From a virus: a stretch of DNA of 34,903 nt. This document shows positions 3,753-26,008 of the stretch, one piece after another. Location of the stretch: positions 1 to 34,903 of IMG/VR virus record IMGVR_UViG_3300046804_002948. One strand, given 5' to 3'. Made by a program: the position numbers and the translations under genes. The notes under the pieces were generated by a model, which saw only the letters and a program-made list of their open reading frames with translations, did no database searches and was not told where the DNA came from. Position 1 is the first letter of the stretch. Each line of letters starts with the position of its first letter.

Positions 3753-4390
3753 CCTACTATATCCTTAATAACATTCAATAATCTATTCGTAACTTCAAGT
3801 GGTGTTGATACTGTTGGTGTCGGACAAATTTTAGATCCCTTTGCAACTGGATTTAATCCGCCAGTAGATGCAGAATCCATTGCATCAACTAATCCACCAT
3901 AGATATTTAATATGCCATTTCCGATGACTTCTACAGTCTTCTCAGAAAAAATTTTAGTATTAACATCAGATTTTATAATTGCATTCTGTTTTCCGTAGAT
4001 TGTAACATTTTGATTTGCCTCAATATTAATATTTCCGTTCTTTCCATCAGCACCCTTTGCGATCAGATCAATATTTTCTGCATAAATTCTGATTCTTCCA
4101 TTTTTTGCATTTAAAATAAGGTCACCATTTACGGCATCCATAAAAATTCCAGGTTGCCCATATGGAGTAGTGTCTCCAGCCTGAACCTGAAAAGATCCAG
4201 AGGACTTACAAATAGTTCCGTTTTTTCTATGAGGTTTTCCAGAAGTTTCAAGAGTTATATAATGATTGGCATCATGACCACTTCTTAATGCTACCGCAGA
4301 AACAACACCATCCTCATGGATATGACCAAACTTAAGTTCTCCATCTCTTGTACCATAACCAATAGTTCTATGATTTTGAGTTTTAGCCAT
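3749..4390 (-). CDS. Separate beta-helix tail-spike protein (gp5 C-terminal-like)
   Basis: A 213-residue protein. Residues 75-165 have the short alternating strands of VgrG/gp5 triple beta-helices: G-D-L-I-L-N-A, G-R-I-R-I-Y-A, I-D-L-I-A-K-G, G-N-I-N-I-E-A, V-T-I-Y-G, V-E-V-I-G-N-G. The N-terminal part repeats GYG/GHIH beta turns. In T4 this helix is the C-terminal third of gp5 and forms the membrane-puncturing needle. Here it is a separate gene whose start codon overlaps the end of the gp5 homologue at 4390. The inferred role is the central baseplate spike. The motif evidence is visible; trimerisation is inferred. Confidence 0.72.
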   Translation of the reverse strand: MAKTQNHRTIGYGTRDGELKFGHIHEDGVVSAVALRSGHDANHYITLETSGKPHRKNGTICKSSGSFQVQAGDTTPYGQPGIFMDAVNGDLILNAKNGRIRIYAENIDLIAKGADGKNGNINIEANQNVTIYGKQNAIIKSDVNTKIFSEKTVEVIGNGILNIYGGLVDAMDSASTGGLNPVAKGSKICPTPTVSTPLEVTNRLLNVIKDIVG

Positions 4391-6573
4391 TAGAATTTAC
4401 CCACACAATCTACAACAGAAACAACTGGAACATCGATTCCAAATGCCAATACATCTTTATTTACCTTCAACAATGGTTTTAAGACAGCGTTGAAACCAGT
4501 CTCAGATTCAACAAAAATGTTTGGCATTTCTGTATATCCGATTCCGGTTTTAATTACTTTTACTTCTGTTAATGATCCAGAGGCATCACAATAAAACTGA
4601 ACTTCAACACCATTGCTTGGTGTAATTATAATCTCATCTTTAGAACAATTATAGTTTGACCCGGGATTTTCAATTATAACATCTTCAAGTTCTAACATAA
4701 CCGGATACTTTCCATTACCTAAAGATGCGTCTTTTCTTCTATCTGAAGGTGGGAGTTTAGTTTCTTCGCACTCTGGTGCAATTACTGTTTCTTTCTTTGT
4801 GGCAATTCTAGTATCACCACACGAATACAATTCATCGCCCGGATTAAGGTTCATAGGTTCTCCCGGATTATATGGTCTGTCATATTTTCCATCGGATCTT
4901 TTAATAGATGACTGTTTTTTTTCAGCCCAACGGCGGCCATCTCCTCCACGATCTCCATTTGGTGCAGGTAAATATCCAGATCCAGGATTATCTATTAAAA
5001 CTTTAGTTACTCCTTTACCTTTATCTACAGAACCCAAAACAGCTCTACCTGATGCTCCTTTTCCTATCCCACAAGAATCAACAAATCTAACTGTCGGAGC
5101 TGATTGATATCCACTACCAAAGGAAGTTAAATCAACACCAAGAATATCACCAGTAGCACTTATGATTGCATTTCCTGCCGCACCTGAACCACCACCACCA
5201 TAAAATTCAACGGTAGGAGGTCCACAGAATATGGGACCAACATTACAAGTATCTTGAAAAATATCACTGAAATCAAAATTAAAATCAAAATTATCTGGAT
5301 CAACGGATTGTTGGACATCAGAAGCATATGATTTTATTTTATCAATCAAACCCGTTATATTAGATCCAACATTAAACTTTGTTGCTCCATCCCATACACT
5401 CCAAGCTGTAATCTCAGGACAATCTGGAGTTTCTTCGCATTGAAGAAATGAGATTAAATCGGTTACAAAGTCAATAATATCACCAGCAATATCTAATGCG
5501 CCAAGAAGAGCATTTAATGGAGCAAGAGCTATTTGAATAGCACTACTAATCAATCCAGTAAGTTTTCCAATGAGAGATGCAAGAATATTCTCAATAGCAC
5601 AAAGAGGAGCATTGATAAATCTTTCTGCAATCTGAAGTAAAAAATTTTGAATAATATCAAGAAGATTTGCAATTATTTTCTTAAATAAACAAGCAATAAC
5701 ATCTTTTGCGGTCTCTAATGCTGATTTTACTGTAGTATCTCTAACATCAGGGGGAACGATTGCATTTGCATCAACGGTTGCTAAATTAAGTTTTTTTTGT
5801 ACACGTTTTTCTATTTCAGTAATGATTGTTTTAATACCCTGAGCAATGAACTTTGAAACATTTTGAATTTTATATTTAATATATTCATCTAAAGTATATT
5901 CTTTTCCCTCTTCACTAATGGTTGGATTTAATATTTTACTTTCCCAACTAGAAACTTGATCTTTGAATTTTTGAACATCCTGAATAAACTTTTTTATTTC
6001 AATCTGAATTTGAACAAGTTGAATCTTATCACAATCGGAAGGTACAGGAAGTCCTGTTTCTTTTTTCCCTTCTTCTTGTTGCTTTATATCAGCGGAAGAA
6101 GTTTTAACTTGTTTAGTGTTTGATTCTGAAACTTCCCCAACAGAAGTAGAAAGGTCAAGTACAGAAACACCTTGCTGCACATAAGTGCTGTAAGGATCAA
6201 ATCCATTTTGTGGAACTTTTTGCTGTAACTTGGTTTGATCATTATTTGCAAAGGTTCCAACAATAACTAATCCAGTCTTAGTGACAGGATCATCATAGAA
6301 TCCCCAAACAAAAGCACCTTCTCTTAGATTAGATGTTTGATAACTTCCTTGATGCCCACTACCAGCAGTAACTGGATAAAGAACTATTGCATCATCTAAC
6401 TGTTCTGTGGGAACCTCTTTTCCCGCAGAATCTCTTCCAATAACACGAACCTTATATCTTGCCCCCCATCCCTTAATATCAGAAGGCGATTTCCATTTCT
6501 CCGATGGAAGGTTTTTTCCTTCCATCTCAGATTCAATTTGACCTCTCCAAGTTACAAACTTTTCTTCAATCAT
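4390..6573 (-). CDS. 5: gp5-like baseplate hub protein, without lysozyme domain
   Basis: A 727-residue protein. Residues 5-125 match the T4 gp5 N-terminal OB-fold: a KVRVIGRD strand, I/V-P-T-E-Q-L-D-D, L-Y-P-V-T-A-G-S-G-H-Q-G-S, a glycine turn, V-x-G-F-Y-D-D, G-L-V-I-V-G-T, then N-G-F-D-P-Y-S. Residues 180-400 are helical and partly hydrophobic where T4 gp5 carries its lysozyme; no E-D-T lysozyme triad is present. Residues 450-727 hold three or more beta repeats (G-S-G-Y...A-P-x-V-x-F) rich in Gly. The beta-helix needle is the next gene. The hub role is inferred from the OB match and from neighbours gp27-like and spike. Confidence 0.78.
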   Translation of the reverse strand: MIEEKFVTWRGQIESEMEGKNLPSEKWKSPSDIKGWGARYKVRVIGRDSAGKEVPTEQLDDAIVLYPVTAGSGHQGSYQTSNLREGAFVWGFYDDPVTKTGLVIVGTFANNDQTKLQQKVPQNGFDPYSTYVQQGVSVLDLSTSVGEVSESNTKQVKTSSADIKQQEEGKKETGLPVPSDCDKIQLVQIQIEIKKFIQDVQKFKDQVSSWESKILNPTISEEGKEYTLDEYIKYKIQNVSKFIAQGIKTIITEIEKRVQKKLNLATVDANAIVPPDVRDTTVKSALETAKDVIACLFKKIIANLLDIIQNFLLQIAERFINAPLCAIENILASLIGKLTGLISSAIQIALAPLNALLGALDIAGDIIDFVTDLISFLQCEETPDCPEITAWSVWDGATKFNVGSNITGLIDKIKSYASDVQQSVDPDNFDFNFDFSDIFQDTCNVGPIFCGPPTVEFYGGGGSGAAGNAIISATGDILGVDLTSFGSGYQSAPTVRFVDSCGIGKGASGRAVLGSVDKGKGVTKVLIDNPGSGYLPAPNGDRGGDGRRWAEKKQSSIKRSDGKYDRPYNPGEPMNLNPGDELYSCGDTRIATKKETVIAPECEETKLPPSDRRKDASLGNGKYPVMLELEDVIIENPGSNYNCSKDEIIITPSNGVEVQFYCDASGSLTEVKVIKTGIGYTEMPNIFVESETGFNAVLKPLLKVNKDVLAFGIDVPVVSVVDCVGKF

Positions 6574-8132: not shown

Positions 8133-11100
8133 TTACATTGGAACTCTTGAAGAGTACTTACTACTTCTATTTAATGGAGATTGTATTGGAACTTCTTTTA
8201 TAATCTCAATAGGAAGAATGAATATTTGAGTATCTTGACGGTCATAAGATGCTTCTCTTTGAAGTGGTTTTACTTTTTCTTCTCCAATTTGACCTCCCTT
8301 CTTGTAATAAAAATCAGGAGTCCCAGCATTTAAAACTGTACCTTGTTGTTTTGCTAAAGATCCATCTGGTTTGTAACGGCCGTGCCCAACAAATGCATTA
8401 ACTCCGACTATATCAGCCTTTGTTCCATACCCACCTGTTTCGCTATATGTGAGATTTTTTAATGCTAAGGGGAAGGGAACTCTATTACCTTGACCATAAG
8501 CACCTCCAACCTGAATATCAATTTCTGTTGGACCTCTTCCTCCTGTAGCATGAGCTGCCATTCCTCTTGCAATATACCCTCTTATTTGATCATCTGTAGC
8601 TCCAGTTGGTATATCCTCTCTAGATCTTCCAATATGAACTGATTTTTTTCCGAGGAAATCTTTTATAACTCTAAAAGCAGCAGCGGTTGAACCAGAAGAA
8701 TCTCCAGGTTTTGTAGTACCAACGTGGAAATGAACACCTACAGAATCACCAGAGTTTCCTTGAATAAATCTACCATCACCGGGAACCATAGATCCTGGTG
8801 TTACAACTGCTTGCTCTAAAGGTCTACCTTCATCATCTTTTCCGGTTTGAAATCTTCTCAAAACTGCTCTAGCGGATCCAATTCTATCATTTAACTTACT
8901 TCTTCCATAATTTCTAACTAAAGCCCCAGGATATCCACCAGCTTCGAAGTAATCAGCCCACACTTCAGTTGCTTTTTCAATATCAGATTGCTTTTTCAAT
9001 TCTTCAAGTCCTTTTTTGTAAGTTGAATTATTAGTTAGTTCCCAATCAAGAGCTCTCAAATTATCCATATCAGTCCAAGGTCTATCAGTGACTCCTATTG
9101 CACGAGCAATATTATCCAACCTCTTTGATGATCCAACATTAGTCCATTGCGCCCACCCATACCCAACTCTATCAGTTCCTATTGGTGGTGGACCAAAAGT
9201 TCCATACGAATCTTCTATGTCATCAGGTCTACCTTTACCAAAACCCTCTCTTAAAAGAACACCAACAATTGCAGATGCTTGAATGTCAGTAAGACCATAC
9301 TTAGACTTTAAATATTTTGCAACCTGAACAGATTTAGAAGCAACATTTCCACGAAGTTCAATATTTCCTGCGTCAGATGATGGAATATTATCACCAGAAC
9401 CCGATATGAGTTGTTTTAATCTAAGGTTTTTTCTCATCTCATTAATTGCTTCAGTAACTTTATTTTTCACCAAGTCCTCAACGGATCTTTCCACCCATCC
9501 ACTAATATCTCTTTTTATTTGGGTTTCAATATCAATCATACCACCTTCGGCAAAAGCACTCATTAAGTTTCCTTGTAAAAGTCCTTTGGTGATTGCATTA
9601 TTAATCCAAGCATTAAATGAAGATCCAATGATTCTAAAATCATCTTTTGTCGGCATATCACCTTTCAATACCTTACCAAAAATATTAAATATGGGTCCAA
9701 TCGCAGGGATTTCTCCAAATCGTTTTGCAGTATTAGTTAAGAATCCATAAGGATTCATCATTTTATTCATCTGATTTTTTGGTGGTTCTGGGAAAAGTTG
9801 TTTAAGTTTCTTTTCTCCACCTACTGATGCACCAGATTTTATTTGTTTTGATTTTGGTGCAGAATAAATTCTTCTTACAGATCTTTTTACTTTACCCCCA
9901 ACAACTTTTCCTTTTCTTGTGGTAACTTTTCCTCCACTAGCTGCTGCTTTTACAGGTTTACCTTCTGGTTTTTTATTTTCAAAGAATAAATCGTATAAGG
10001 CACCACCAGCAATATCCCCCAAAGTGCTGCCAGCAAGTCCAGTTAGAAGAGCAAAAGGGCCACCAACTGCTGCGCCAATAGCACCAAGTAGTACTGAACC
10101 GATTGCTCTAAATGCAGATCTTCCAATCTTTTCTCCAAGTGCAACTGATAGTCCAAAATCTAAAAGACCACCAATGATAGGAAGACGTTTTGTGAATGGT
10201 CTTACAAAATTAAGAACTACTTTTGCTCCACCTTTACCAAGAAGACCAGTGAAAACACTACGGGCACCTCTTTGAAGAAGTCCTCTTTGCATTCCACTCG
10301 GCAATGCTTCTAATCCCGCCTCACCAAATCTTTGAATAAATTTATCTCTTCCAAATCTTTGGAAGTATCGTTTCATTATATCTTTTTCACTCTTTATAAA
10401 ACCAGAAGTACTAAAATCTCCTCTTTGACCTCTTAATGCGTCGCCAGTTCTACTTAAAAGAGATCCACTACGACTAGTACGAGTATTAAATCCATTATAT
10501 TGTCCTGTGCGAACTCCATTTCTATAACTACCCCCTCCTGGTCTTCCACCACCAGGACCTCCACCAGGTCTTCTTAAACTAGGTCCACCAGTTGCTAGCA
10601 TACCAGCAACTAGAGCAAGATTTATAAAGGTATTTAAGTTCTTACTAAAATCATCAAATGCCTTTTGGAAGGGTTCTCCGCCAAGATTTTTAGTAAACTC
10701 CCTTACTTTATCATATGCTTTGTATCCAAAATCAATAAAATCTACAACACCTTTGAAAAAGTTTATAGATAAGGTTTCAAAAAATTGAATAATAGGTTGA
10801 ATATTTTTAAGAAAACCAAGTATCTGTGGAAGATACGGATAGATTTTTTTAAATGCCCACCCAAGAAAAGTAAAGGTTATGAATCTATTAATAGCATCCA
10901 AAAATCCAAGTTGTGGTATAGTACCAACTAAAGCCTTGAGAAGACCAGAACCTTTTTTACCTTCTAGTCTGCTTTCTTTCTCATCTCTTTTTTTGTTTTC
11001 AGATTCTTTTTTATCTTGCTCCTGAGATTTTTTTCTCAATAATGTATTATCACTTACAATTCTTGATATGCTAGCAACTTGCTTTTTAATTGTTACAATT

Positions 11101-11237
11101 GCACCATTATCATCATCTTGAGGTTTAAGATTCCTTGATCCCTTATATAAAGTAGGTATCATCTTTCCTACTTTTACAATAGAACTTGAAGATCCTATTT
11201 TTGATTGTGGGAGAAGTTTTTGAGAGTTAATAGACAT
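8133..11237 (-). CDS. Tape-measure-like structural protein with phage tail lysozyme domain
   Basis: A 1034-residue protein. Residues 50-100 are a charged coiled coil ending K-E-S-R-L-E. Residues 105-240 contain hydrophobic helices (F-L-D-A-I-N-R-F-I-T-F-T-F-L-G-W-A-F-K). Residues 205-460 are Gly/Arg-rich with more hydrophobic stretches. About 628-795 is a tail-lysozyme-type domain: Q-V-A-K-Y-L-K-S-K-Y-G-L, Q-A-S-A-I-V-G-V-L-L-R-E, then G-W-A-Q-W-T. About 830-1005 contains G-V-H-F-H-V-G and G-H-G-R-Y-K-P-D-G, which could be a metallopeptidase-like or carbohydrate-binding module. The N-terminal module is paralogous to the upstream gene. It probably helps form the tail lumen and penetrate peptidoglycan; which of the two is the tape measure is not decided. 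Confidence 0.72.
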   Translation of the reverse strand: MSINSQKLLPQSKIGSSSSIVKVGKMIPTLYKGSRNLKPQDDDNGAIVTIKKQVASISRIVSDNTLLRKKSQEQDKKESENKKRDEKESRLEGKKGSGLLKALVGTIPQLGFLDAINRFITFTFLGWAFKKIYPYLPQILGFLKNIQPIIQFFETLSINFFKGVVDFIDFGYKAYDKVREFTKNLGGEPFQKAFDDFSKNLNTFINLALVAGMLATGGPSLRRPGGGPGGGRPGGGSYRNGVRTGQYNGFNTRTSRSGSLLSRTGDALRGQRGDFSTSGFIKSEKDIMKRYFQRFGRDKFIQRFGEAGLEALPSGMQRGLLQRGARSVFTGLLGKGGAKVVLNFVRPFTKRLPIIGGLLDFGLSVALGEKIGRSAFRAIGSVLLGAIGAAVGGPFALLTGLAGSTLGDIAGGALYDLFFENKKPEGKPVKAAASGGKVTTRKGKVVGGKVKRSVRRIYSAPKSKQIKSGASVGGEKKLKQLFPEPPKNQMNKMMNPYGFLTNTAKRFGEIPAIGPIFNIFGKVLKGDMPTKDDFRIIGSSFNAWINNAITKGLLQGNLMSAFAEGGMIDIETQIKRDISGWVERSVEDLVKNKVTEAINEMRKNLRLKQLISGSGDNIPSSDAGNIELRGNVASKSVQVAKYLKSKYGLTDIQASAIVGVLLREGFGKGRPDDIEDSYGTFGPPPIGTDRVGYGWAQWTNVGSSKRLDNIARAIGVTDRPWTDMDNLRALDWELTNNSTYKKGLEELKKQSDIEKATEVWADYFEAGGYPGALVRNYGRSKLNDRIGSARAVLRRFQTGKDDEGRPLEQAVVTPGSMVPGDGRFIQGNSGDSVGVHFHVGTTKPGDSSGSTAAAFRVIKDFLGKKSVHIGRSREDIPTGATDDQIRGYIARGMAAHATGGRGPTEIDIQVGGAYGQGNRVPFPLALKNLTYSETGGYGTKADIVGVNAFVGHGRYKPDGSLAKQQGTVLNAGTPDFYYKKGGQIGEEKVKPLQREASYDRQDTQIFILPIEIIKEVPIQSPLNRSSKYSSRVPM

Positions 11238-11238
11238 A

Positions 11239-13590
11239 CTACATTATCCCATAAGTTTCTATGATCTTAGATCTTCTAGAATATGCAGAAGAAGAAATTA
11301 CTGGAAATGAAGGAACGACTGTTTCCGGTGCTTGTCCAGGTCTACTCATTTTTCCACCAGACTTTTTGATTGGCGGAAGAACCTGAACTCTACCACCACC
11401 TCGTTTTGGTGGAGGTAAATTATACTTTACATTCATAGCATCTTTAGATGTTGGATCTAATTTTGCTTGAACTGCTTGGGCAATTTCAACTGCTCCCCTA
11501 TCAGTTGCGGTTTTAGTAAATATAAATCTTGCTTCTCCGGGTTGAGCATAGTATGAAAAATATTGCCTATCGGCACCTTCCAACCTATTTCCATCAGGAC
11601 CATAATCCGATCCATCACTTTCTCTAATTACTCCACCTTCTTGTCTTCTTTGTATTTGATTTGGTCTATACATAAAAGGTGGAACAAAGGGAATACCACT
11701 ACCAACTATTTTTTCACCTACAATCTTAGGTCCTTTTAAATTTTTTAAATTCAAAGGTCCACTCATCAATAAATTTCTTTCAAGAGCAATTCTTTGTGGA
11801 TTTGGTCCATCTCTCTGTACATTTTGAGCGGCATTCCTAATATCACCAATTTGAAATGCTTTTGACAACTTTGGATAAGCGCCAATAGGAGCATATGGAG
11901 CATTATAACCAAGAAGCAAAACACCAGCTTTTTGTTTCTCGGTCATTTTATTCCAATAAGGAATTTTGCTTGAATACTCTCTTGCAAGATTTGATATATT
12001 TGTCAACAAAATATTATCTGCTTTACCTTTGGTTATCTTATCCCCCATTCTTACTGGATTTTTGCCGTTCAATATACTATCATAATAAGTAGATCCCCAA
12101 CCAATAGTGGCTTGACCAACACTATCAAGATAAGAATATATTGGAGTATTCTTATTAACTTTTGACCAGTTTGAACTACCCGGACGAGTAAAATCATTTA
12201 TTCCGGGTCTTAATGAAGAAAGTGCCTCATCTTGTTTTAAATGATGAGCAGCAATTCCAATTTCACCTCCACCACTAAAGGCTTGAATGATGCCTCCAAG
12301 AGAGCTTGCAAGAATATTATTTCCCAATGTTCTTGGTTTATTTGCATTTGCTCCAACATTATATGCAAGTGGATCTACACCTGTGTCCTGAATCATTCTT
12401 TCGCGGGCACCAACCTGCAGAACAGATTCTCCCTTCTGTAAGATTGCTCCGCCACCACCTTCTACTGGGAAGAACTGTGTATCAGGACCAGCACCGGAGA
12501 CATAAGATCCAGTTGTATGATCCACGAGTCCACTAAAGATTGATCCGCCACGATTATACATCGCACCAGGAACAGGAGCAACGATTGCTTGACCCTGACC
12601 CATTGATAACTGTTGTCCCGCAAACATAGCTCCAAGTTTTTTATACCAAGGAGCACTAGAATCTTTTTGAATGTTTTCTATACTCTCTCTTTGTTTTTGA
12701 ACTTCAGGTTGCAATCTTTCTCTTTCACCAGTTCTTGCAAGAGTTCCCGCAACAGAAGTTCCTATGATTAAAGATGCAAGTGGATGTGCTCTTATAAAAT
12801 TTAATAATTTTGGAAGTGCAAACTTACCTATTTTAAAAGTAAGTTTTAAAACTGTTCCAACTATAGTCCTTATAAACCTACCCAAAGGATTTGCGAAGAA
12901 AAACCACGCACCAAGTAAAGCAGGCCACCAGTCTTTTAAAAATCTTCCAACTACTTTTATTTTTTCTTGGTTCTTTGGATCAGAAGACCATTCCATGAAC
13001 AACTTGAATGCCCTTCCAAGAACAGTGAATACTATGAAACGAACTATGCTATCTAATATATTTTGAACTGGGGCTAATACTTTTTTAGCAAAGGATACGA
13101 TTGGTTTTAAACCACTCTCAAGTCTAGACTCTTTTCTTTTTCTTCTTTCTTCTTCTCTAGACTTTCTCTTATCTTCTTCTGATTTTTTATCAAGTTTATT
13201 TTGTTCGGTGAGACTTCTTAAAATATCATCAAGTCTAGAACTTATATCAAGTAAATCTCTACCTACAAGAGCTCCAGATGCACCAACTCCACCTTTAGGT
13301 GCGAGAAGTAAAGACTTTTTAGCGGGTTTTAAAAGTTTAGATGTTGCAAACTTATCTGCTGTTATTTTTTTCTTCTTTACAGTAAATCTACCTTTTTCTC
13401 CCCTGATTCTTTTTCTCTCATTTGCAAGTAAAGAAAGTTCTTCGTCGGGTATCTTACTACTACCAAAAGATCCTTTTACGATTGCCTCTTTAAGAAGAGT
13501 CAGATAAGTATCATAATCAAGGTCAAAAACATCCTCAAGACCAAGTATCCTTAGAATTCTTCCATCTATTTCTTCAGATACTTGGTTCAT
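11239..13590 (-). CDS. Tape-measure-like structural protein with GH24-type lysozyme domain
   Basis: A 783-residue protein. Residues 120-165 are a very charged coiled coil (K-R-K-S-R-E-E-E-R-R-K-R-K-E-S-R-L-E). Residues 170-300 are hydrophobic helices (S-I-V-R-F-I-V-F-T-V-L-G-R-A-F-K, W-W-P-A-L-L-G-A-W-F-F-F). Around 446-595 there is a T4-lysozyme-like domain with the E-D-T triad visible: E in Q-D-E-A-L-S (about 455), D in Y-L-D-S-V-G and T in A-T-I-G-W-G (about 490-500). It is the first gene after the gp26/gp51 pair, overlapping gp51 by ATGA, which is the tape-measure position in lambda-type tails. The muralytic role is inferred from the triad. Confidence 0.72.
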   Translation of the reverse strand: MNQVSEEIDGRILRILGLEDVFDLDYDTYLTLLKEAIVKGSFGSSKIPDEELSLLANERKRIRGEKGRFTVKKKKITADKFATSKLLKPAKKSLLLAPKGGVGASGALVGRDLLDISSRLDDILRSLTEQNKLDKKSEEDKRKSREEERRKRKESRLESGLKPIVSFAKKVLAPVQNILDSIVRFIVFTVLGRAFKLFMEWSSDPKNQEKIKVVGRFLKDWWPALLGAWFFFANPLGRFIRTIVGTVLKLTFKIGKFALPKLLNFIRAHPLASLIIGTSVAGTLARTGERERLQPEVQKQRESIENIQKDSSAPWYKKLGAMFAGQQLSMGQGQAIVAPVPGAMYNRGGSIFSGLVDHTTGSYVSGAGPDTQFFPVEGGGGAILQKGESVLQVGARERMIQDTGVDPLAYNVGANANKPRTLGNNILASSLGGIIQAFSGGGEIGIAAHHLKQDEALSSLRPGINDFTRPGSSNWSKVNKNTPIYSYLDSVGQATIGWGSTYYDSILNGKNPVRMGDKITKGKADNILLTNISNLAREYSSKIPYWNKMTEKQKAGVLLLGYNAPYAPIGAYPKLSKAFQIGDIRNAAQNVQRDGPNPQRIALERNLLMSGPLNLKNLKGPKIVGEKIVGSGIPFVPPFMYRPNQIQRRQEGGVIRESDGSDYGPDGNRLEGADRQYFSYYAQPGEARFIFTKTATDRGAVEIAQAVQAKLDPTSKDAMNVKYNLPPPKRGGGRVQVLPPIKKSGGKMSRPGQAPETVVPSFPVISSSAYSRRSKIIETYGIM

Positions 13591-13751
13591 CGTTGCTGAT
13601 TTTGCTTAAGTTCTTCTTCTTTCAAGTGCTGCTTGAGAAGGATCACATAAATGTCTCTTTCCCAAGGCATCATATTTTCTATTTCCGTTAATGAATATTT
13701 ATGATACTGCATCAAAGAAAAATTAAGCTTGAAGTAGTTTTCAAGGTCCAT
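13587..13751 (-). CDS. 51: gp51-like baseplate hub assembly protein (54 aa)
   Basis: A 54-residue frame from the ATG at 13751 to the TGA at 13587-13589, overlapping the next start as ATGA. The sequence includes Y-H-K-Y-S-L-T-E-I-E-N-M-M-P-W-E-R-D and a charged helix end. In T4, genes 26 and 51 are adjacent hub-assembly genes; the same order here supports the name. No Shine-Dalgarno precedes the ATG, and the ATG lies inside the palindrome GGTCCATATGGACC. The frame is open upstream to the slippery site in gp26, so it may be made mainly as a gp26-gp51 frameshift product (298 aa). Confidence 0.72.
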   Translation of the reverse strand: MDLENYFKLNFSLMQYHKYSLTEIENMMPWERDIYVILLKQHLKEEELKQNQQR

Positions 13752-13775
13752 ATGGACCAATGCTATACGAAAAAA
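13745..13775 (-). promoter_or_regulatory. Putative programmed -1 frameshift site joining gp26 to gp51
   Basis: Near the end of gp26 the minus strand reads AGT TTT TTC GTA TAG. The heptamer T_TTT_TTC (13769-13775) is in the correct zero-frame phase (X XXY YYZ). A -1 slip continues CGT ATA GCA TTG GTC CAT ATG, entering the gp51 frame with no stop. Ten nucleotides downstream, GGTCC-ATAT-GGACC (13745-13758) can form a 5-bp hairpin that also covers the gp51 ATG. This is sequence evidence only; slippage has not been shown. Confidence 0.6.
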
Positions 13776-14482
13776 CTTGATAACCCTTCAAGAATCACTT
13801 CACTCTCAACTTCTGTTTTTGGATTTTTAACTTTAATCTTGTGAGATAGTTTAGGCATCGTTTCAAAGAACTTTTCAATTTGTTTAAACTGAGAAGAGTT
13901 CATTTGTTCAAGGAACTCTATGAGTTCTTTTTTAGTTACATCAGGAGCAGACCAAACTTCTTCTTCATTATAAATCTTATCAATACATGAAGTAATCAAT
14001 TCAAATGATTGCTCCATATTATTCTGATTTGTAATATCAAAGTTACTCTTAATAAACTGCTCTAGTGATGGATATTTCATATCCATCATCAAACTATCAT
14101 CAAGTTTAATTTGTTTATTGTGCTCAGGATTTTTCTGTACTTTAATACTATCAACACCAATCTTTATAGGAACTGTGGTTTCTTCATCATCTGGACAAAT
14201 AATATTAACTTCTAGCTCTTCTCCAACAGACTTACCGCGAATATTTAAGAACAAATATTCAATATCAAAAGTTGGTAAAAGTTCTACTTTTACATTTTTA
14301 GTTTCAATACAGTTCTTGATTACTGTTTTGATTGCAGTAGTAATCTGTTTCGTATCTTCGGATTCTAATGCAAGTAAAAGTAGTTTTTCTTCCTTCACAA
14401 GAAAAGGTCTGTACTTTATTGTTTGTCCTGTAGAAGGTAATTCCAACTCATATGTTGGCGTAGCAATCTTAGGTAAAGGCAT
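13763..14482 (-). CDS. 26: gp26-like baseplate hub assembly protein
   Basis: A 239-residue protein starting MPLPKIATPTYELELPSTGQ, then Y-R-P-F-L-V-K-E-E-K-L-L-L-L-A-L-E-S, F-D-I-E-Y-L-F-L-N-I-R-G-K-S-V-G, C-P-D-D and M-K-Y-P. These are the features of the T4 gp26 family (Pfam T4_baseplate). T4 gp26 is part of hub assembly. A late promoter (14511-14518) lies 29 nt upstream. The C-terminus ends in the slippery heptamer described at 13769-13775, so the gene may have two products, as lambda gpG does. It sits between the tube gene (gp54) and the tape-measure-like genes. Confidence 0.85.
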   Translation of the reverse strand: MPLPKIATPTYELELPSTGQTIKYRPFLVKEEKLLLLALESEDTKQITTAIKTVIKNCIETKNVKVELLPTFDIEYLFLNIRGKSVGEELEVNIICPDDEETTVPIKIGVDSIKVQKNPEHNKQIKLDDSLMMDMKYPSLEQFIKSNFDITNQNNMEQSFELITSCIDKIYNEEEVWSAPDVTKKELIEFLEQMNSSQFKQIEKFFETMPKLSHKIKVKNPKTEVESEVILEGLSSFFV

Positions 14483-14600: not shown

Positions 14601-15311
14601 TTATGTAGTTGAAGTTTCTTCTTGTTCTATTTTTTCATATCCTCCATCAACTCTATATCTACTATACGAAAATGAAACTGTACACTTCAAAAGAGATGAC
14701 TGATCGTAAGAAACTGGCATTGATCCGATGCTAATCGGAAAGGCATTTATAAACTTATAAGTCAAAAAATTTCCAGTCCCACCACCTACAGCAGTCATTT
14801 TATAATCTCTTTCAAATTTTGTTATTGATAGATCATTTGCATAATAACCACCTATATCTTTATCCGCAGGTTTTCCTGGAAAGTTTACTCTATACGTATA
14901 ATTTGGTAAATCAAATCCATTAAGCTGCTCATTAACGACATATGCAATCCACGCCTCAAAAAATCTAATTGAATAATATTCCTCAGCATCAACAAAAAAA
15001 GTAAAGTCTATTCTATCATCATAGATTCTTCTATATCCGTGCTTTTCAGAAATTCCAGCATAATCATTATCAATATCAAGAGTAGCTAAAGAAGATCCAG
15101 GAAGACTTGCTTCTACGCAAGCAATAGATAAATTATCATGTATTTTACGTGAATCTTTCACATCTATTCTTGGAGAAAAGAAATCAGTTTTCGGTGGAGA
15201 TATATTTACGATATATTGAGACGTTAATGATGGTCTTAGTATTTTTGATACAATCTCACCAACCTCTAGAGGTTTTATTTCTGTTGGTGGATTTTTTGGA
15301 ATAAATGCCAT
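14601..15311 (-). CDS. 54: gp54-like baseplate tail-tube initiator
   Basis: A 236-residue protein starting MAFIPKNPPTEIKPLEVGEI. The C-terminal half follows the gp19/gp54 tube fold pattern: F-E-A-W-I-A-Y, then I-T-K-F-E-R-D-Y, then F-I-N-A-F-P-I-S-I-G-S-M-P-V-S-Y, then C-T-V-S-F-S-Y-S-R-Y. Gp54 caps the hub and starts tube polymerisation together with gp48, which is encoded nearby on the other strand. The gene starts opposite the divergent late promoter of gp4. It stops at TAA 14601-14603, but the same frame stays open for 28 more codons (to 14514), so the C-terminus may be a recent truncation or subject to readthrough. Confidence 0.75.
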   Translation of the reverse strand: MAFIPKNPPTEIKPLEVGEIVSKILRPSLTSQYIVNISPPKTDFFSPRIDVKDSRKIHDNLSIACVEASLPGSSLATLDIDNDYAGISEKHGYRRIYDDRIDFTFFVDAEEYYSIRFFEAWIAYVVNEQLNGFDLPNYTYRVNFPGKPADKDIGGYYANDLSITKFERDYKMTAVGGGTGNFLTYKFINAFPISIGSMPVSYDQSSLLKCTVSFSYSRYRVDGGYEKIEQEETSTT

Positions 15312-15320: not shown

Positions 15321-15350
15321 TTTGTGCTTATATATTATGTAGTACGAATA

Positions 15351-15797
15351 ATGGCGGAAAGTATAAAGAGCATCTATAAACCTTCCTATCCAGAAAAATA
15401 CAAAGGTGACGCAAATAACATTATTTGCCGAAGTAGTTGGGAACGCAAGTTTTGTTATTACTGCGACCACAATCCAAGTATAGTATCTTGGGCATCAGAA
15501 GAATTTTGCATATCATATGTATCTCCAGTAGACAATCGTGTTCATAGATATTTTCCGGACTATCTCATCAAAGTCAAAGAGCAATCAGGACAAATCAAAA
15601 CTTATGTGATTGAAGTAAAACCAAAAAAGCAAACTGTTCCCCCAAAACAAAAATCAAGAGTGACCAAATCTTATCTGTACGAATGTAGAACCTATGCAGT
15701 AAATCAGGCGAAATGGAAAGCAGCACAAGAGTGGTGTGCCGATAGAATGCTAGAATTTAAAGTTATAACAGAAGAAGAACTTTTTAACTCACGATAA
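15351..15797 (+). CDS. 4: gp4-like head completion protein
   Basis: A 148-residue protein starting MAESIKSIYKPSYPEKYKGD. Conserved gp4 landmarks are I-I-C-R-S-S-W-E-R-K-F, Y-C-D-H-N-P-S-I, S-P-V-D-N-R-V-H-R-Y-F-P-D-Y and V-I-E-V-K-P-K-K-Q-T. The D and E-x-K pattern resembles a TnsA/PD-(D/E)XK-like nuclease core. T4 gp4 (50) acts in head completion before tail joining. I chose the ATG at 15351 over an in-frame start at 15324 because it begins the conserved sequence and leaves the late promoter upstream. The stop overlaps the next start (TAATG). Confidence 0.85.
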   Translation: MAESIKSIYKPSYPEKYKGDANNIICRSSWERKFCYYCDHNPSIVSWASEEFCISYVSPVDNRVHRYFPDYLIKVKEQSGQIKTYVIEVKPKKQTVPPKQKSRVTKSYLYECRTYAVNQAKWKAAQEWCADRMLEFKVITEEELFNSR

Positions 15798-24686: not shown

Positions 24687-25262
24687 TCATGAACGACCCC
24701 CCCACTGAATATCGGGATAAGCCTCACTCACAATTTCTTTGGTGATCTTATATTTAGTTTGCAATCTTTTATCTTTAATCAGACAAACAATTTCCGCTTC
24801 AAGGGGATGCAGTCCTTGAAGAATATTAATAAACATTGTTTCTCTTCGAAGAGAACTTAAATTATCGTTACCACCCTTTACAAAATTGTAAAACATATGA
24901 TACTCTTTACGAATAGAGGATCTACCTTGATCCATAGATCCAAGAGAATTTGAGTTCAACTCTTGCATCTTAGAAACAGCATCATCAATTCTACCCGACA
25001 ATGTTCCACTATATGAAGTCTGCTCTTCAGCACTTGCATACGGAACATCTCCTTCAGGTAAAAGAGAAATTATAGATTCGTCAAAATTCCAAATCAAAAC
25101 AGCCTTAAGAGAAGGATCATCATATTTACGAAGCACTTCTACTTTTTTGGCATTTGTGCTTTGTTTTGATACAAGATTTAAAACTTCAAATGTAAACGGA
25201 TTTACTGGAAGATCTTCAATCGGAGTATCAGTCTTCTTCTTCGTCTTCGTCGTCGTAGTCAT
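24687..25262 (-). CDS. Conserved T4-like phage protein, 191 aa
   Basis: A 191-residue helical protein from the ATG at 25262 (MTTTTKTKKKTDTPIEDLPV). Landmarks: F-E-V-L-N-L-V-S-K-Q, V-L-R-K-Y-D-D-P-S-L-K-A-V-L-I-W-N-F-D-E-S, L-L-P-E-G-D-V-P-Y, F-Y-N-F-V-K-G-G-N-D-N-L, G-L-H-P-L-E-A-E-I-V-C-L-I-K-D. These features recur in an uncharacterised family conserved across marine T4-like phages (I believe it is catalogued as DUF6433). It overlaps the membrane-protein gene by 35 nt. Conservation suggests a core role, but none is known to me. Confidence 0.8.
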   Translation of the reverse strand: MTTTTKTKKKTDTPIEDLPVNPFTFEVLNLVSKQSTNAKKVEVLRKYDDPSLKAVLIWNFDESIISLLPEGDVPYASAEEQTSYSGTLSGRIDDAVSKMQELNSNSLGSMDQGRSSIRKEYHMFYNFVKGGNDNLSSLRRETMFINILQGLHPLEAEIVCLIKDKRLQTKYKITKEIVSEAYPDIQWGGRS

Positions 25263-25464
25263 AATCGTAGTCGCTATTTTCAAATCGTACACTTACTATT
25301 TCGTCAGGTATCACCTGCCCGTTTTCATCAAAGAACTCTGGATGCAGATATGGAGGTCTTGATTCCAATAAATGCCTATACACTAACCATCCTATTATAC
25401 CCCCAGTCATAAAAAAGAGCAACGTGAACATTACGGTGAATGTTATTACATATGCTGTTTCCAT
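25228..25464 (-). CDS. Single-pass membrane protein with acidic tail
   Basis: A 78-residue protein. One transmembrane helix at residues 6-28 (A-Y-V-I-T-F-T-V-M-F-T-L-L-F-F-M-T-G-G) is followed by W-L-V-Y-R-H-L, then P-E-F-F-D-E-N-G-Q-V-I-P-D-E-I-V and a D/E/Y-rich tail. By charge the N-terminus is probably outside and the acidic tail in the cytoplasm. GGAGAAG lies upstream of the ATG. Similar proteins are widespread in cyanophages; the function is unknown. Confidence 0.8.
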   Translation of the reverse strand: METAYVITFTVMFTLLFFMTGGIIGWLVYRHLLESRPPYLHPEFFDENGQVIPDEIVSVRFENSDYDYDYDDEDEEED

Positions 25465-25482: not shown

Positions 25483-25689
25483 TTATTTTTTTCTAACATC
25501 AAAATGAAATTCTATAAAGAAATGAAACTCTCTGCGGAAGAGAGAGATCATTTTACCAAACTTCACTTGAAAAGTTTTTGGTTCTGGTGATCTCTTCCTC
25601 CTATTCCTAAGTAATAACTCAACACCCCGATTAATCTGGGGTTCTGATTTATTTAGTTTGCTTTTTCCTTCTTCCTGGTCGTTTATCAT
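25483..25689 (-). CDS. Basic conserved hypothetical protein, 68 aa
   Basis: A 68-residue protein from the ATG at 25689 (MINDQEEGKSKLNKSEPQIN), then R-G-V-E-L-L-L-R-N-R-R-K-R-S-P-E-P and an aromatic C-terminal part (F-H-F-F-I-E-F-H-F-D-V-R-K-K). It overlaps the preceding gene by 41 nt in another frame. I keep it because R-G-V-E-L-L-L-R-N-R-R looks familiar from other cyanophages and because it fills an otherwise empty gap. The function is unknown. Confidence 0.65.
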   Translation of the reverse strand: MINDQEEGKSKLNKSEPQINRGVELLLRNRRKRSPEPKTFQVKFGKMISLFRREFHFFIEFHFDVRKK

Positions 25690-26008
25690 GACTATATTTC
25701 CAGGCATCCTCTAAGATGCCATACAAGTAGTTACGAATCTTTCTTGCTTCTGGTTTGGGAATGTGTCCATAACCTTCACGAAGTTGTTTATGAATTTCGT
25801 CAGCACCACCCTCAAGATAATCATCTAAATCCATTACAAGACTACTGATTTCGCTAGCAGTAGCACTTTCAATAAACTGCTCAACTTCTATTCTCTTTGT
25901 TCCACGAACCTTTAAATAGTCATAAAACTTTAAAACAAACTGCCCATTAAAAGCATAATCAATTGCTTTTTCAACATCATTATAAACTTCATGAAAGTTG
26001 CTATCCAT
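25649..26008 (-). CDS. Conserved cyanophage protein, 119 aa
   Basis: A 119-residue helical protein: an N-terminal helix pair with K-F-Y-D-Y-L-K-V-R-G-T, a middle S-S-L-V-M-D-L-D-D-Y-L-E-G-G-A-D-E-I-H, then G-Y-G-H-I-P-K-P-E-A-R-K-I-R-N-Y-L and a basic end P-G-R-R-K-K. It starts at the stop of the glutaredoxin gene (shared nucleotide 26008), so the two are co-translated. The strongly conserved-looking G-H-I-P-K-P-E-A-R core suggests a functional surface, but no family function is known to me. Confidence 0.78.
   Translation of the reverse strand: MDSNFHEVYNDVEKAIDYAFNGQFVLKFYDYLKVRGTKRIEVEQFIESATASEISSLVMDLDDYLEGGADEIHKQLREGYGHIPKPEARKIRNYLYGILEDAWKYSHDKRPGRRKKQTK

Follow-up and report, generated by a model that had tools for sequence, protein, structure and literature searches.

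The window analyzed here, meaning the whole 34,903-base stretch of DNA, is a metagenomic IMG/VR fragment of a marine T4-type virus. It carries a gp26-like gene whose nearest named relatives are found in cyanophages such as SynMITS9220M01 and S-SM2 (76% identity) and which runs at its 3' end into an open -1 frame that is labelled gp51, "baseplate hub assembly catalyst," in the annotations of related phages (Table 1). A preliminary description, made from the letters alone, had given the gene order as tube gene, gp26, gp51, and tape-measure-like genes. This order stands, but the upstream gene is not the tube gene itself and encodes a gp54-like tube initiator (PHROG_45). In HTVC008M, the gene at the position of the downstream neighbor bears the annotation "putative tail tape measure." The two large adjoining tail genes of the window (8133-11237 and 11239-13590, both minus strand) carry differing lysozyme-type domains, PF18013 and PF00959, and a gp4-like head closure protein encoded on the plus strand (15324-15797) contains a TnsA-like endonuclease domain (PF08722, E=8e-23).

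Table 1. Features at and around the gp26-like gene, in window positions
Feature	Positions	Strand	Evidence
gp54-like tail tube initiator (tube paralogue), upstream gene	14601..15311	-	Phage_TTP_2 E=1e-9; PHROG_45, common to T4 gp54
gp26-like ORF, 239 aa; predicted short form of tail assembly chaperone (TAC-N)	13763..14482	-	Pfam PF12322 E=8e-75; PHROG_150 positions 5-232; T4 gp26 aligned over whole length
SD-like GAAGGG, read as Glu-Gly (GAA GGG), ∼10 nt before the slip; likely stimulator	13784..13789	-	Codon preference in relatives
Slippery heptamer T_TTT_TTC	13769..13775	-	In gp26 phase; frozen codon choice in relatives
-1 frame extension, 62 codons from slip plus stop; predicted C-terminal domain of long form	13587..13775	-	PHROG_634 E=4e-26; PHROG_150 positions 242-282
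0-frame stop TAG terminating short form	13763..13765	-	Letters read directly
Palindrome hairpin GGTCC-ATAT-GGACC (GGTCCATATGGACC); possible 3' stimulator, clade-specific	13745..13758	-	Pairing in window-like loci
Downstream gene, 783 aa, with lysozyme domain; tape-measure position	11239..13590	-	PF00959 E=3e-7

A slippery heptamer at the end of the gp26-like gene

Read on the minus strand, the gp26-like gene ends in GAA GGG TTA TCA AGT TTT TTC GTA TAG, so that a single sense codon (GTA) separates the heptamer from the gp26 stop. The preliminary description had placed T_TTT_TTC in the correct phase near this stop and had the -1 frame entering gp51 without interruption, and both readings are confirmed by the letters: the heptamer occupies 13775-13769 in gp26 phase, and the -1 frame is open from there to a stop at 13589-13587. 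Translated from the slip to this stop, the -1 frame reads FFRIALVHMDLENYFKLNFSLMQYHKYSLTEIENMMPWERDIYVILLKQHLKEEELKQNQQR. A -1 shift at this site would give ...SSFF-RIALVHMDLENYFKLNF..., open to 13587, and the predicted junction peptide is ...GLSSFF continuing into RIALVHMDLENYFK. The locus thus combines a heptamer of the X_XXY_YYZ type in 0-frame phase with a -1 frame that is open across the junction and codes for a conserved domain, as for a -1 tandem-slip frameshift. Among the 9,682 codons of the examined window genes, the gp26 end holds the only in-phase T_TTT_TTC, and a -1 extension of 60 codons follows it; as a plain string, TTTTTTC is not enriched in the window (32 observed versus 26.9 expected).

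Other heptamers occur near gene ends in the window. A GGGGGGT near position 24700, two codons before the stop of the gene at 24687-25292 (minus strand), opens onto a -1 frame of 103 codons. Frameshifting is not indicated there, as the family of the downstream gene (PHROG_485) starts close to an internal ATG that is preceded by a good Shine-Dalgarno (SD) sequence, and this locus looks like an ordinary gene overlap. In the window, a small minus-strand ORF (25483-25707, PHROG_4685) has AAAAAAA directly before its stop and a -1 extension of 36 codons.

Conservation of the heptamer and of the extended frame

The preliminary description had tied its proposal to the conservation of heptamer and frame at the gp26-gp51 junctions of related phages, and the comparison speaks strongly in its favor. 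All 80 near relatives from IMG/VR (70-85% identity) have T_TTT_TTC in phase, one sense codon ahead of the stop. A wider set comprised 263 related loci whose gp26 stop could be read; in 255 of them, U_UUU_UU(C/U) stands in phase and the -1 frame continues open into gp51. Heptamer, phase, and -1 extension are kept across Kyanoviridae, Pelagibacter and Methylophilales phages, phages of Sinorhizobium, Stenotrophomonas, and Pseudomonas, and non-T4 Straboviridae; named phages that bear the heptamer include Sinorhizobium phiM7, Stenotrophomonas Ps15, Pseudomonas Milchi, Aeromonas P19, and Vibrio phi-Grn1, and it is also present in two additional loci of the phi-Grn1 kind and in KVP40-type phages. The stop itself moves in some relatives, standing directly after the heptamer or up to eight codons on, with the heptamer and the -1 continuation unchanged. 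In a metagenomic fragment such as the window, the frame change might be suspected of being an error of sequencing or assembly confined to one phage, but its recurrence at the same codon in 255/263 loci, finished isolate genomes included, already refutes this explanation and makes it practically inconceivable.

The eight exceptions are four T4-type loci, the Vibrio phages Kuja and K448, and two loci in which the gp26 frame is broken further upstream. In the latter two, the break lies well before the usual end while close relatives are intact, and these are probably sequence errors. The gp26 homologues of Kuja (3992-4744 of its locus) and K448 (3839-4579) lack the heptamer. In both, the -1 frame immediately past the gp26 stop stays open for about 60 codons, and the TAATG overlap in K448 makes another mode of expression possible there.

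The comparison of slip-site codons covered the heptamer-bearing loci (255 of 263). At the first Phe, 176/176 codons are TTT, and at the second, 166/175 are TTC, whereas Phe codons elsewhere are TTT and TTC in a ratio of 1359:557; these counts, like those for the SD-like element and the stems below, treat related sequences as independent, and the statistics are therefore indicative only. The codon preceding the two Phe codons always ends in T, even though nine codons for eight residues occur at this place. Judged by these comparisons, the slip site hardly varies in its choice among synonymous codons, which indicates a constraint beyond the protein.

The -1 extension could also be expressed independently, with gp26 and gp51 as separate proteins, gp51 translated from its own ATG through coupling with gp26 termination, and the run of T's incidental. 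In public records gp51 is listed as a gene in its own right, and in the window an ATG (13751-13749, minus strand) does lie 11 nt past the gp26 stop. As the preliminary description had noticed, this ATG has no SD sequence before it and is buried in the palindrome. In the relatives, 97/255 loci lack an ATG in the 12 codons that follow the slip, 71/255 have no ATG, GTG, or TTG in the gp51 start region, and only 9 of the 158 loci with an ATG near the gp51 start have an SD. Conservation of the gp51 domain at the protein level starts at the slip, upstream of the ATG, with the motif FFRI..L..YY..NF.LMQ.HKYSLTE.ENM.PWER in the relatives. Together with the frozen synonymous codons and with T4 gp51, which is one continuous protein spanning both parts, these observations make separate expression very improbable. 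Because so many loci lack an ATG near the start, the best interpretation makes gp51 the C-terminal domain of a gp26-51 fusion, and in these phages it is probably the end of a frameshift product, not a separate gene. Pfam and NCBIfam scans of this domain returned weak names at chance level only, such as Stealth_CR2. If gp51 is indeed the end of a frameshift product, the length of the cyanophage-type "gp51" (∼55 residues) is explained, and a misleading gp51 annotation probably stands in hundreds of cyanophage records.

Candidate stimulators and the proposed mechanism

Upstream of the slip, a conserved Glu is encoded by GAG in 120/155 relatives, versus 30% elsewhere; where it is GAA, the next Gly is GGG in 23/35. 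Both preferences maintain GAGG or AAGGG ∼10 nt before the heptamer, as would be expected of an SD-type stimulator. Downstream, RNAalifold found no consensus structure in whole groups of loci (energy 0), and stems were therefore tested pair by pair. The palindrome that the preliminary description had located 10 nt past the slip is found there with the letters it had given. All five pairs of this GGTCC/GGACC hairpin can form in 43/70 window-like loci, with 0.86 of cells paired versus at most 0.54 when the stem is slid. As a general signal the hairpin was rejected: it is restricted to the clade of the window, all five pairs being possible in only 2/60 and 0/36 loci of other groups. The P-SSM4-like group has another stem, of 11 bp, beginning 5 nt past the heptamer, in which at least 9 of the 11 pairs can form in 42/60 loci. 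Compensatory changes occur at +13:+27 (T-A 27, A-T 11, G-C 11), and pairing (0.85) exceeds that in shuffles (0.43) and, counted over cells (0.78), that of slid stems (at most 0.46). Signs of stimulatory elements are thus present as SD-like enrichment, a covarying stem in the P-SSM4-like group, and a weaker, clade-limited hairpin in the clade of the window. The SD-like sequence is a likely stimulator of slipping, and the downstream stems are possible ones.

Runs of T or A can also cause RNA polymerase to slip, and the six consecutive T's at the slip site would fit a long form made by ordinary translation of mRNAs with an altered number of U's. However, the relatives share the codon phase of a tandem slip, and the seventh base is usually C and not T. 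Neither this phase, nor an SD-like element at about the dnaX-type spacing, nor a covarying stem 5 nt downstream in one clade would be expected under polymerase slippage, for which we see very little chance.

We consider it highly probable that in this phage one gene gives rise to two tail assembly chaperones through a -1 ribosomal slip at U_UUU_UUC. The letters, the phase, the conservation, the codon constraint, and the homology of the two forms to T4 gp26 and gp51 are established by the analysis; slippage, its rate, and the actions of stimulators and chaperones are predicted. Most ribosomes would read gp26 to its own stop and produce the 239-amino-acid short form, whereas a minority would slip back by one nucleotide and translate about 60 more codons, giving a long form of ∼298 amino acids that includes the "gp51" domain. 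The upstream SD-like sequence would pair with the ribosome and raise the slip rate, to which the downstream hairpin would probably add. By analogy to lambda gpG/gpGT, coating of the tape-measure protein would fall to the short form, and recruitment of tube or hub subunits to the C-terminal domain of the long form.

The chaperone role is suggested by the nested forms, the gene order, a review of T4, and a model of gp26. Homology to T4 gp26/gp51 and to PHROG_150 indicates two products that share an N-terminal domain, the longer with an extra C-terminal domain. As in a G/GT pair, they are encoded between a tube-type gene (the gp54-like initiator) and a large gene in the tape-measure position. The T4 review describes gp26 and gp51 as hub assembly chaperones and gp51 as needed for assembly and absent from the particle (PMC3004832). 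The modelled gp26, a confident model (pLDDT 87.8), has the HK97 tail assembly chaperone 2OB9 as its top PDB match, at a non-significant E of 0.83. A sequence search of the PDB gave no match, and a Pfam scan of the gp26-like and gp51-like parts matched no family named as tail assembly chaperone. From this evidence we infer, with support from the analysis, that the gp26-51 products are a chaperone pair in this phage.

Comparison with T4 and other known systems

In T4, genes 26 (minus strand) and 51 (plus strand) are separate and divergent, and there is no frameshift. The chaperone-pair reading of the preliminary description is supported for the phage of the window by homology and conservation; the proposed frameshift does not extend to T4. 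Profile comparison (hhalign) aligned T4 gp26 with residues 8-241 of the fusion, ending beside the Phe-Phe, and T4 gp51 (249 amino acids) end to end with fusion residues 1-294. T4 gp26 and T4 gp51 both match PF12322 over the length of that family. T4 gp26 also matches PHROG_150, in which T4 gp51 covers positions 13-280 of 282. The short form of the window therefore resembles T4 gp26 and the whole fusion resembles T4 gp51; the preliminary description was right about the frame and position of gp51, but what is annotated as gp51 matches no more than roughly the final fifth of T4 gp51. T4 gp28 as a third family member found no support (hhalign E=0.56), despite a weak PHROG_1140 match of T4 gp26.

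T4-type gp26 genes lack the slippery heptamer of the window: their Phe-Phe is the non-slippery TTC TTT in 3/4 loci, and the fourth has G_TTT_TTT. On the simplest reading of these sequences, the frameshift would have given way to a gene duplication in the T4 branch. Beyond this, we lean slightly towards a broader scenario in which frameshifting would be the ancestral means by which T4-type phages balance short against long chaperone. In this scenario the heptamer and the SD-like element driving it would be fixed and the clade-specific downstream stems exchangeable, and the T4 branch would have lost the frameshift by gene duplication and replacement of the slippery codons. The two groups offer a natural experiment in which frameshift and gene duplication appear to serve the same end.

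Among other systems, Escherichia coli dnaX has an SD-like sequence ∼10 nt before its heptamer and a stem after it. The window resembles dnaX in both the upstream SD-like spacing and the downstream stem and differs in the heptamer, which is A_AAA_AAG in dnaX, and in the unrelated protein. In phage lambda, the genes follow the order tube, chaperone, tape measure, and the slip site is G_GGA_AAG. The window shares with lambda, as predicted features, the -1 shift near the end of the first frame and the two products with a common N terminus; its heptamer is instead T_TTT_TTC, and its gp26 is larger than lambda gpG. Lambda gpG and gpGT, which share their N terminus through this -1 frameshift, function in tail assembly and are absent from the particle (PMC5009743). 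According to the same 2016 review, long-tailed phages conserve G-T frameshifting "except T4," a clause that the present comparison puts in context. Conserved -1 shifts with a poly-T motif at the TAC-N end are likewise described for Vandenendeviridae/Andersonviridae (phage Adele, PMC12846349), which are other phage families, and the Adele motif is GTTTTT, compared with U_UUU_UUC in the window.

The recasting of gp26 and gp51 as a chaperone pair, put forward as new in the preliminary description, had already been published: according to the papers that cite it, the work of Vladimirov, Gautam, and Davidson (Virology 2022;566:9-15) named the T4-like tail assembly chaperone genes, with a short and a long chaperone and with duplication in place of frameshifting in some phages, and the T4 review (PMC3004832) already counts both proteins among the hub assembly chaperones. 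PRFect cites Vladimirov et al. for phages in which a short gene is accompanied by a longer fusion gene, and the Adele paper (PMC12846349) cites them for -1 signals of the poly-T kind in the TAC-N genes of T4-like phages. As far as these citations show, the core chaperone idea is largely anticipated, and the locus of the window is a well-supported case of it. Within the T4-like chaperones as treated there, the window belongs to the frameshift sort, and T4 to the sort with a separate, longer fusion gene.
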